Positions 2,864 through 21,203 of a stretch of 32,250 nucleotides of DNA are shown here, one piece after another. Each line of letters opens with the position of its first letter. The first letter of the stretch is position 1. Origin of the DNA: a virus; the IMG/VR virus record IMGVR_UViG_3300024282_000010, positions 1 to 32,250 of that record. One strand, written 5' to 3'. A program made the translations under genes and the position numbers. The notes under the pieces are model-generated. The model saw only the letters and a list, made by a program, of their open reading frames with translations, was not told where the DNA came from and searched no databases.

Positions 2864-2981
2864 GGCAAAGAGCAAATCGGTAGGTGTCAGCAAATACAAA
2901 CCGAAAAGAAAGGTCAGTAGAAAAGGTGTGCATTCCAAGAACAACCCACCAGCGAAGAAATATCGTGGACAAGGTCGGTGA
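2856..2981 (+). CDS. Small, very basic protein (41 aa)
   Basis: A short frame from TTG 2856 to TGA 2979-2981 fills what would otherwise be a 130-nt gap. The product is extremely Lys/Arg rich (KAKSKSVGVSKYKPKRKVSR) and ends KKYRGQGR. I recall short basic proteins with a similar RGQGR end next to fiber genes in other Bacteroidota phages, but this is memory, not a search. The charge suggests nucleic acid binding. The TTG start overlaps the previous stop by 8 nt; TTG 2823 is an alternative. No ATG is available in this frame. Confidence 0.6.
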   Translation: MAKAKSKSVGVSKYKPKRKVSRKGVHSKNNPPAKKYRGQGR

Positions 2982-2984
2982 TTT

Positions 2985-2997
2985 GCTATTTTAAGAT
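2985..2997 (+). promoter_or_regulatory. GCTATTT late-start motif
   Basis: GCTATTT (2985-2991) followed by TAAGAT and ATG 2998; a 6-nt gap where the other copies have 7. No good -33 element is visible at the expected distance. Confidence 0.4.
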
Positions 2998-3258
2998 ATG
3001 AAGCTTCCAGTCAGTTTTTCAGAGTTCAGTAAAGACCCATCAAAGGCTTTGACTTATCTGATGATTTTTGCAGTCATCTTTCTCTATCTGAGAATGGAAG
3101 GTCAAGACAACTCCATAAACAATGGATGCGAGGACAGATTGACAAAGTGTGAAAACAAACTTGACCAAATGTCGGTAATGCTTAAAACTCAGGACTCGCT
3201 CTCTGCTTCGCTCCGCTCTGAATTGAACACCTACAAAAACTTGGGAATCATCAAATGA
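2998..3258 (+). CDS. Membrane-anchored coiled-coil protein, i-spanin-like (86 aa)
   Basis: One membrane segment (residues 17-31, ALTYLMIFAVIFLYL) near the N-terminus is followed by a polar, heptad-like region (CEDRLTKCENKLDQMSVML...) to the end. This is the layout of an inner-membrane spanin subunit (Rz type): a short cytoplasmic tail, one TM helix and a periplasmic coiled coil. The next gene, overlapping by 4 nt, encodes a secreted coiled-coil protein, and a holin gene follows, so a lysis role is likely. The family is not recognised at sequence level; another membrane-bound scaffold role is possible. Confidence 0.65.
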   Translation: MKLPVSFSEFSKDPSKALTYLMIFAVIFLYLRMEGQDNSINNGCEDRLTKCENKLDQMSVMLKTQDSLSASLRSELNTYKNLGIIK

Positions 3259-11691: not shown

Positions 11692-11721
11692 TTGCGATAT
11701 CAAAAAAAGGGTGCATCTTTG
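11692..11721 (+). promoter_or_regulatory. Early promoter of the ribozyme-containing operon
   Basis: TTG (11692-11694), a 19-nt spacer, then CATCTTTG (11714-11721), one mismatch from TAnnTTTG. ATG 11726 follows after 4 nt, so the transcript is leaderless or close to it. Spacer length equals that of the promoters at 12600 and 21174. Confidence 0.6.
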
Positions 11722-11725
11722 AACT

Positions 11726-11938
11726 ATGAAAAACGAACAACAAACCACCGAAACTAAAATCTGGGCTATTGACCAAATTGTGAAATTCACTCTTGAAATT
11801 GAAAATATCAAAGAGATGATGAACCGAAAAACATTTAATGAACACGACCAAAATTTCAATCGTTCTATGTGGGCTTTAAAAATTGATATGATTGAAAGCC
11901 AAATTGAGCAATTGAAGATTTGGATTGTAAACAACTAA
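11726..11938 (+). CDS. Small helical hypothetical protein (70 aa)
   Basis: First gene behind the 11692 promoter. Almost entirely helical and charged (WAIDQIVKFTLEIENIKEMM, MWALKIDMIESQIEQLKIWI). No known motif or membrane segment. Its stop codon is followed without gap by a hammerhead ribozyme, so its mRNA would be cut away from the rest of the operon and end in the ribozyme body with a 2',3'-cyclic phosphate. Function unknown. Confidence 0.7.
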   Translation: MKNEQQTTETKIWAIDQIVKFTLEIENIKEMMNRKTFNEHDQNFNRSMWALKIDMIESQIEQLKIWIVNN

Positions 11939-11988
11939 GTCAAACTGATGAGGCTTCAATAGCCGAAACGCCTTCGGGCGTCTTTGAC
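11939..11988 (+). ncRNA. Hammerhead ribozyme (type I, open stem I)
   Basis: Every element of the hammerhead core is present in order. Stem I: GTCAAA (11939-11944) with TTTGAC (11983-11988), 6 perfect pairs. Core: CTGATGA (11945-11951). Stem II: GGC/GCC (11952-11954, 11962-11964) with a 7-nt loop. Core: GAAA (11965-11968), whose last A pairs with T11981. Stem III: CGCC/GGCG (11969-11972, 11977-11980) closed by TTCG. The cleavage triplet is GTC (11980-11982), so cutting is predicted between 11982 and 11983. It fills the 54-nt gap between two genes; cleavage would leave the next ATG (11993) ten nucleotides from a new 5'-OH end. Hammerheads are known in phage genomes; activity here is inferred from complete consensus. 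Confidence 0.93.
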
Positions 11989-11992
11989 AACT

Positions 11993-12133
11993 ATGCAAAA
12001 GCCAACTTACGCCTACCTCAACGGGAAAGTTGTGGAGGTCATCAAGCAAGAGGACAATGGAACATTCCTCATCAAACTAAACGAACGCCTATATTGGGTA
12101 GAAGCACACGAACTCAAACACATCAAACTATGA
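11993..12133 (+). CDS. Small hypothetical protein directly after the ribozyme (46 aa)
   Basis: ATG 11993 to TGA 12131-12133: MQKPTYAYLNGKVVEVIKQE, DNGTFLIKLNERLYWVEAHE, LKHIKL. Alternating hydrophobic residues suggest a small SH3-like beta barrel. Its stop overlaps the next start (ATGA at 12130), supporting expression. It would be the first gene on the downstream mRNA released by the hammerhead, beginning after a 10-nt leader. Confidence 0.75.
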   Translation: MQKPTYAYLNGKVVEVIKQEDNGTFLIKLNERLYWVEAHELKHIKL

Positions 12134-12336
12134 TACCAGCAATCCTAATCATCCCGGTGACCATTGCCATCTTGGCAATCAGTTACCTCAAATTTATCAT
12201 CAAGAAGGGTATTGACTCTTACGATGTTCCTCACCAACCAATCCCTGAGCGTGACAAGCCTATTCCTCAATTTAACGAATGGCAAAATCACCTCAAAACC
12301 GAACGCAAAAAATTGTATAGAGGAAAGGCACTATGA
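12130..12336 (+). CDS. Small membrane protein (68 aa)
   Basis: One N-terminal membrane segment (IPAILIIPVTIAILAISYLK), then a polar tail with DVPHQPIPERDKPIPQF and a basic end (TERKKLYRGKAL). ATG 12130 overlaps the previous stop; the longer open frame upstream runs through the ribozyme and is rejected. Possibly a host-takeover or superinfection protein, but no family is recognised. Confidence 0.75.
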   Translation: MIPAILIIPVTIAILAISYLKFIIKKGIDSYDVPHQPIPERDKPIPQFNEWQNHLKTERKKLYRGKAL

Positions 12337-12611
12337 AGAACAAGATTGAACAACTGATGCTCAACTATCCAAAGGCAATGGATGATGACAATTTTCTTCA
12401 AGCCTTAGTTTGGAAAGGTGAACTTGGAGCGAACCCAAATATGTCAGCGATGGACTTTCTGCGACTCTATGCAGCAGGTTCATTCACCGCACCTGAAACC
12501 ATCAGACGCACTCGGCAAAAGCTGCAAGAGGAGAAAGAACATCTCAGAGGTAAGAAGTACAAGATTCGTCACGAGCATCAAGAAACTTGGAAAAAGGACT
12601 TGGGGTATTGA
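12333..12611 (+). CDS. Hypothetical helical protein (92 aa)
   Basis: ATGA overlap with the previous gene. Helical, with DDDNFLQALVWKGELGANPN, SAMDFLRLYAAGSFTAPETI and RRTRQKLQEEKEHLRGKKYK. The last part resembles the winged-helix-like C-terminus of small phage proteins encoded in replication regions, which I recall but cannot verify. It ends 11 nt before the -7 box of the ncRNA promoter, whose -33 element lies inside this gene. Confidence 0.72.
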   Translation: MKNKIEQLMLNYPKAMDDDNFLQALVWKGELGANPNMSAMDFLRLYAAGSFTAPETIRRTRQKLQEEKEHLRGKKYKIRHEHQETWKKDLGY

Positions 12612-17063: not shown

Positions 17064-17392
17064 TACAAACAGACATTGACTTTGTCCTTGAACTTTCTCC
17101 GTTGTTTCAGCAATGGAAGCAACAAGGATACTTCCGAGTGACCCCTGAACAAGGAGTACGACTCCGCAACATCTATCAAACTGAGATGGGAAAACCGATG
17201 CCATCTTGCTCAACTTGCTTTGTTGAAGCTTTCTACTCTCTAATTATTCGAGCAGAAGCACAACAAAAGGAACTCCAAGCAGCACAGATTTCAGATGACG
17301 AACAAAAACCAAAACGAAAAAGGCGTGAAAAAACACACACAGATTTACTTGAAGGAAATGAACTACCACCTCACGGATTGGATACCGTGTGA
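17060..17392 (+). CDS. Hypothetical protein before the packaging genes (110 aa)
   Basis: Start at ATG 17060 (MIQTDIDFVLELSPLFQQWK), ATGA-coupled. The body is helical with YFRVTPEQGVRLRNIYQTEM (24-43) and a conserved-looking PSCSTCFVEAFYSLI (48-62) holding a CxxC. The tail (DDEQKPKRKRREK...) is highly charged and overlaps the HNH gene by 98 nt. It could be a DNA-associated accessory of packaging; the family is not recognised. Confidence 0.7.
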   Translation: MIQTDIDFVLELSPLFQQWKQQGYFRVTPEQGVRLRNIYQTEMGKPMPSCSTCFVEAFYSLIIRAEAQQKELQAAQISDDEQKPKRKRREKTHTDLLEGNELPPHGLDTV

Positions 17393-21171: not shown

Positions 21172-21203
21172 TTTTGCATATTGAAAAAATAGTTTTATAT
21201 TTG
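21172..21203 (+). promoter_or_regulatory. Consensus Bacteroidota promoter
   Basis: TTTTG (21172-21176), 19-nt spacer, TATATTTG (21196-21203), a full match to TAnnTTTG. ATG 21225 follows 21 nt later. It is an early-type promoter within the late region, driving the 58-residue gene. Confidence 0.75.

Follow-up and report, generated by a model that had tools for sequence, protein, structure and literature searches.

The role of hammerhead ribozymes in phages has been an open question since they were first found there, and it is raised again by a hammerhead lying between two early genes in the 32,250-nt stretch of DNA from an uncultured phage analyzed here (the window). Hammerheads in clusters that flank phage genes were described by Perreault et al. 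(2011, PMC3088659), who showed that some of the tandem prophage copies cleave in E. coli as well as in vitro. The same study proposed that hammerheads process phage polycistronic transcripts (PMC3088659), so a separator function is not in itself new. Judging from the comparisons below, it is fairly likely that the window ribozyme belongs to a compact, phage-borne subfamily of type I hammerheads and works as a cistron separator, and phage hammerheads placed between genes probably chop long messages into separate ones.

The sequence at positions 11939–11988 (plus strand) is a complete type I hammerhead with a canonical core and a GUC cleavage triplet, and reads GUCAAA CUGAUGA GGCUUCAAUAGCC GAA ACGCCUUCGGGCGU C UUUGAC. 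The 5' strand of stem I (GUCAAA, 11939–11944) forms 6 bp with the 3' strand (UUUGAC, 11983–11988) and is followed by an exact copy of the conserved core segment CUGAUGA (11945–11951), the columns of which are invariant in alignment A1. Stem II (11952–11964) consists of 4 bp (GGCU/AGCC, 11952–11955 with 11961–11964) closed by the loop UCAAU (11956–11960), and leads into the core segment GAA (11965–11967) and A15.1 at 11968. Stem III (11968–11981) has 5 bp (ACGCC/GGCGU, 11968–11972 with 11977–11981), counting the A15.1-U16.1 pair, and carries a UUCG loop. C17 is located at 11982, and the canonical GUC triplet is the basis for placing the predicted cleavage between 11982 and 11983, which would make the 3' strand of stem I the 5'-OH end of the downstream mRNA; the sequence AACU (11989–11992) then completes a 10-nt leader ahead of the AUG at 11993. 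Every invariant position of the hammerhead core (CUGANGA ... GAAA) is present, the GUC triplet conforms to NUH, and the A15.1-U16.1 position is A-U in all 57 of 57 aligned sequences. As in other type I hammerheads, stem I is open to the flanking RNA and stems II and III are loop-closed. The predicted minimum free energy structure is exactly the hammerhead fold (−15.3 kcal/mol, z −2.0). A preliminary description of this locus had recognized a complete hammerhead that begins right behind a stop codon and ends just short of the next ATG. Sequence, predicted fold and an independent covariance model (see below) all bear this out, with the TAA stop at 11936–11938 abutting stem I and the next ATG at 11993. 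Its count of 6, 3 and 5 pairs is correct for stems I and III, whereas stem II has one pair more than had been counted because a U-A pair extends GGC/GCC.

The window ribozyme is one of many. A descriptor scan over 186 loci gave 285 copies (216 distinct), and none in reversed sequences; these copies come from pattern scans of IMG/VR contigs, cultured phages and some bacterial contigs. The subfamily form combines a 6-bp stem I, a length found exactly in 251 of the 285 copies, with a 4-bp stem II that bears a 4–5-nt loop, and stem I is flanked by A on its 5' side (88%) and by AA on its 3' side (87% and 83%). The pattern used for the IMG/VR scan prescribed the core but not all of the stems, so that 8 pairs were left free, and all 8 are formed in 124 of the 134 distinct pattern matches (chance, about 4e-4 each). 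In a 57-sequence alignment, double changes occur at 13 of the 15 pairs, all stems covary, and the covariation score is 0.83 compared with at most 0.10 for slid-partner controls. This alignment was chosen by the descriptor, and the free-pair test is consequently the less biased result. Covariation also links stem I to loop II. Where stem I has A.A flanks, loop II ends in U in 133 of 152 copies, and where the 3' flank is U the final loop base is A in 19/19 copies and U in 0/19 (Fisher p 5e-15, uncorrected for relatedness), which suggests a conserved tertiary contact between the stem I region and loop II. Tertiary contacts of the stem I–loop II type make natural hammerheads fast. In the window, the corresponding positions are A11938 and A11989 at the flanks of stem I and U11960 in loop II.

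Several variants of the ribozyme were seen in the course of these scans. At nine loci (including L005:2359–2452, L012:7026–7119 and L037:3495–3585), stem III contains a long insert in which two copies of GAGWCCGCAAA surround a small hairpin. In 3 of the 3 loci checked, the insert-type hammerhead is upstream of a conserved MGLDMYL...YQSSW-type protein; L033 and L022 have a simple stem III ahead of the same type of gene. The insert with its doubled motif is a candidate sensor or protein-binding element. At L120, which has 7 copies in record G002, the copies are followed by a near-identical 24-nt leader (aaaagtsaggygcasactataaca), so that ribozyme and ribosome-binding leader look as if they were duplicated as one unit. 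Legionella genomes and contigs (L162–L181) carry related, looser hammerheads followed by a shared gccac...ttccctaa, and these possibly represent another subfamily; hammerheads at Legionella ardA were noted earlier by Perreault et al. (PMC3088659).

Could the window element be a chance or inactive look-alike? Of 100 shuffled windows, 17 contain the loose core pattern, and a match to the core alone is therefore weak evidence and not enough. For the 25-nt core plus stem II, 0 matches at up to 3 mismatches are expected in shuffled windows. A covariance model (R2) built from 56 diverse relatives, with the window sequence left out, returns a single match in the window, at 11937–11991, with 71 bits and an E value of about 1e-16. 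These two results and the free-pair test settle that the element did not arise by chance. The Rfam models speak for a look-alike insofar as they stay below threshold. Scanning the whole window gave no Rfam match at E ≤ 1, and on the isolated region the best models were sub-threshold, with RAGATH-1-hammerhead at 18.7 bits (gathering cut-off 56.3) and Hammerhead_3 at 14.8 bits (cut-off 48.5); neither Hammerhead_1 nor Hammerhead_3 reached gathering, and no gathering match was obtained for 15 relatives with about 48 copies. A known Rfam family was therefore rejected as the identity of the element. BLAST of the ribozyme region against annotated phages gave no match. The preliminary description had held that a core without conservation in related phages would count against the ribozyme; the core is conserved in the relatives. 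The strength of the independent model, the compensatory changes seen among syntenic relatives (three double compensatory changes and a single loop base separate the window ribozyme from that of L002), the contrast between 285 forward copies and none in reversed sequences, and a search of 396 genomes of the Aquimarina phylum in which only the already known carrier was matched (few candidates were scored per genome) make a look-alike barely credible.

The placement of the copies bears on their function. Between two same-strand ORFs lie 171 of 209 distinct copies, compared with 20% of random positions, and 6 of 209 are inside an ORF, compared with 33% for random positions; the window ribozyme likewise sits between co-oriented cistrons. 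In no locus are there copies on both strands. For 38 of the 209, the method used did not detect ORFs on both sides, which counts against a cistron separator. The distance from cleavage site to start codon is 19–31 nt in most copies, and the leader often contains GGAG. Where an upstream stop codon was detected, its last base coincides with ribozyme base 1 or lies up to 10 nt inside the ribozyme in about three quarters of cases; the ribozyme consensus contains stop triplets, and this overlap may consequently be a by-product. Relatives use the ribozyme serially, with 13 copies in record G031, 9 in G001, 8 in G028 and 7 in G002. Only one copy is found by model R2 in the window record, which may be incomplete, and the window element is therefore classed as a lone intergenic hammerhead belonging to the subfamily and not as a cluster. 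Record G031 encodes an RNA polymerase, a primase-helicase, a DNA polymerase and a thymidylate synthase. In this record, ribozyme copies stand between early genes and also border the genes for RNA polymerase and thymidylate synthase. Carriers are diverse: a phage-type RNA polymerase is present in 6 of the 35 records tested and none was detected in the window, so T7-like phages were rejected as the sole carriers. Isolates that carry the ribozyme include the Pelagibacter phages HTVC019P, Jormungand and HTVC131P, Flavobacterium elemo phages, and Agrobacterium phage OLIVR1. The copy in an elemo phage is at 17287–17349 of MT497017.1 (minus strand), and that in HTVC019P is at 2946–3011 of KC465901.1.

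The window ribozyme is embedded in a group of small genes. Upstream of the region are an Erf annealing protein and a YqaJ exonuclease, and downstream are a DnaD-like loader and a DnaB helicase; these neighbors make the early operon, or replication, setting given in the preliminary description sound. The TAA at stem I terminates gene A (11726–11938, plus strand), which encodes 70 aa with no PHROG or Pfam match. A candidate Bacteroidota-type promoter for gene A, read from the sequence with low confidence, is located at 11692–11721 (plus strand); it consists of TTG 19 nt 5' of CATCTTTG, an imperfect TAnnTTTG box that stands 4 nt before the ATG, and the relative L036 carries a perfect TATATTTG in the corresponding position. 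Downstream of the ribozyme are gene C (11993–12133, plus strand; 46 aa) and further cistrons at 12130–12336 and 12333–12611 (plus strand), which have overlapping starts and stops and belong to the same predicted message. In L002, L007, L011 and L042, the ribozyme is kept before gene C and the upstream gene differs among them. The order in L007 is gene A, hammerhead, gene B, hammerhead, gene C where the window has gene A, hammerhead, gene C, and the gene junctions between the two fall in the ribozyme. In L036, gene C has no ribozyme directly before it, indicating that the gene C junction does not need one, which argues against a separator. Matches to a phosphoesterase, used as a host test, were found in 2 of 297 genomes of the Aquimarina phylum and in 0 of 299 of the Legionella phylum, the latter set being without a positive control; a Bacteroidota host is weakly suggested.

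Promoters and a second RNA structure were also considered in the window. A promoter in the 3' part of the ribozyme (TCTTTGAC) was rejected, as the site has no TA of the TAnnTTTG box and is missed by the promoter scan; the frequency of TTTGN(16-21)TANNTTTG in the window is not above chance. A perfect Bacteroidota-type promoter (TTTG-N19-TATATTTG) is located at 21173–21203 (plus strand), where it precedes another gene, and is nearly identical to that before gene A' in L036 and L011. Between the genes bounded by 12611 and 12745, the segment 12622–12738 (plus strand) contains a promoter-like box TATCTTTG, two hairpins with complementary loops (GUAGCC and GGCUAC), and then GGGGCUUUUUU; it has a predicted fold of −36.4 kcal/mol (z −3.5) and no Rfam match in the window scan. 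Both hairpins and the loop–loop pair are altered compensatorily in L007 (1967–2095, GUAGCA/UGCUAC), and the element is also present in L002, L011 and L042. It is possibly a new phage small RNA or an attenuator with a kissing loop.

A conserved, covarying structure that is set between cistrons and used in series by relatives leads us to infer cleavage, and with it the end chemistry, the product release and the benefit described here. The early transcript would be cut after 11982, past the upstream stop and ahead of the downstream start, a geometry that fits the split of the message between cistrons put forward in the preliminary description. The upstream message would keep its stop codon; its 3' end, made up of the hairpins of stems II and III and a 2',3'-cyclic phosphate, should thereby be protected. 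The message beyond the cut would start with a 5'-OH at UUUGACAACUAUG and carry only the six-base strand of stem I. Because stem I is short, and rich in A-U pairs where it meets the core, the products should part and cleavage should be effectively one-way; the mean duplex energy of stem I is −4.0 kcal/mol, and so weak a stem favors product release. The benefit would be that early messages have lifetimes and dosages of their own with no need of a host nuclease, an outcome comparable to that of RNase III processing in T7 early mRNA.

Other readings place the function elsewhere. The preliminary description suggested that cleavage gives the downstream cistrons a near-leaderless mRNA and could thereby set start efficiency or mRNA stability. 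A main role in setting downstream translation through a near-leaderless, structure-free 5' end is favored by the 10-nt leader shared by the window, L002 and L042, and by the lack of Shine-Dalgarno use in the window phage (SD-like 4-mers at 6 of 39 window genes compared with 13% at random positions, hence no SD signal), which agrees with the little use that the description had ascribed to the host group. The near-leaderless trait thus stands for the window lineage and fails as a general one, since most relatives have the longer, often GGAG-containing leaders noted above. Predicted accessibility of the start site after cleavage rises by a small, significant amount, but the change is tiny (mean, 0.60 to 0.62; window, 0.51 to 0.57), and the predicted folds give no clear sign of an effect on translation. 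The predicted change is too small for unmasking of the start site to be the main effect, which was rejected, and the claim on start efficiency is weak insofar as it relies on unfolding of the start region; a main role in downstream translation keeps a small chance. As a whole, the interpretation in the preliminary description is supported in part. A regulated switch in place of constant scissors has a slimmer one. The upstream stop is often inside the ribozyme, where a terminating ribosome would cover the core, and cutting would then report the level of upstream gene translation; the members with the large stem III insert could add a sensor.

The ribozyme could alternatively be mainly a recombination seam, at which homologous recombination between copies adds or removes cassettes made of a gene and a ribozyme. 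The additional gene B and ribozyme in L007, with junctions in the ribozyme, and the varying upstream genes of the other relatives are what such a seam would leave. Homology breaks at 77 of 98 ribozyme junctions compared with 344 of 493 others, an excess that is not significant per junction (p = 0.09), and this was the ground for rejecting it as the main function; conservation of the catalytic core and the flank–loop covariation would also go unexplained, making a seam quite improbable. Tandem type I copies flanking single genes also recall retrozymes and satellite RNAs, in which case pairs of ribozymes would excise and circularize the gene between them. Stem I differs in sequence in 86 of 118 adjacent pairs, so excised ends usually would not rebuild a ribozyme, and the window holds a single copy. 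A search by Perreault et al. for products that were circular or spliced was negative (PMC3088659). Circularization is very improbable here.

A cistron separator of this kind has counterparts in known systems. Like the prophage clusters of Perreault et al., the present set has the hammerhead catalytic core, serial placement around single genes or short blocks, and a proposed role in phage transcript processing; unlike those clusters, which mix types I, II and III, it is uniformly type I, occurs in phage contigs and isolates, and reaches up to 13 copies per genome. In the haloviruses HF1 and HF2, HHphage is located 13 nt before an early gene start and an RNA 5' end maps within 3 nt of the cleavage site (PMC3088659). 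The window element resembles it in its position shortly ahead of an early gene, and differs in having a canonical core where HHphage has a variant core and a haloarchaeal host. RAGATH-1-hammerhead (RF03152), which gave the best Rfam score, shares the short open stem I of 5–6 bp, but differs in the hairpin that its model places upstream and in the form of stem II. RNase III cleaves T7 early mRNA at sites that separate early genes and border the RNA polymerase gene, and the cuts leave hairpins at the 3' ends. The G031 copies, between early genes and around an RNA polymerase gene, are analogous to these sites. T7 processing requires a host enzyme, unlike the self-cutting predicted here, and no phage RNA polymerase was detected in 29 of the 35 carrier records.

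Within the literature searched, what is new is a subfamily both compact and uniform, the range of carriers it spans, its abundance and serial use in phage genomes and its presence in isolates, together with the flank–loop covariation, the absence from Rfam models at threshold and the availability of testable cultured phages. Some members may be in the dataset of Perreault et al. (PMC3088659), and a literature search found no paper with both "Pelagibacter phage" and "ribozyme". Because the subfamily occurs in cultured phages of Flavobacterium, Pelagibacter and Agrobacterium, the role of phage hammerheads becomes testable in infected cells. If the cistron separator reading is true, many phages would need nothing but RNA to process early messages, and transcript maps and annotations of phages would have to be revised.
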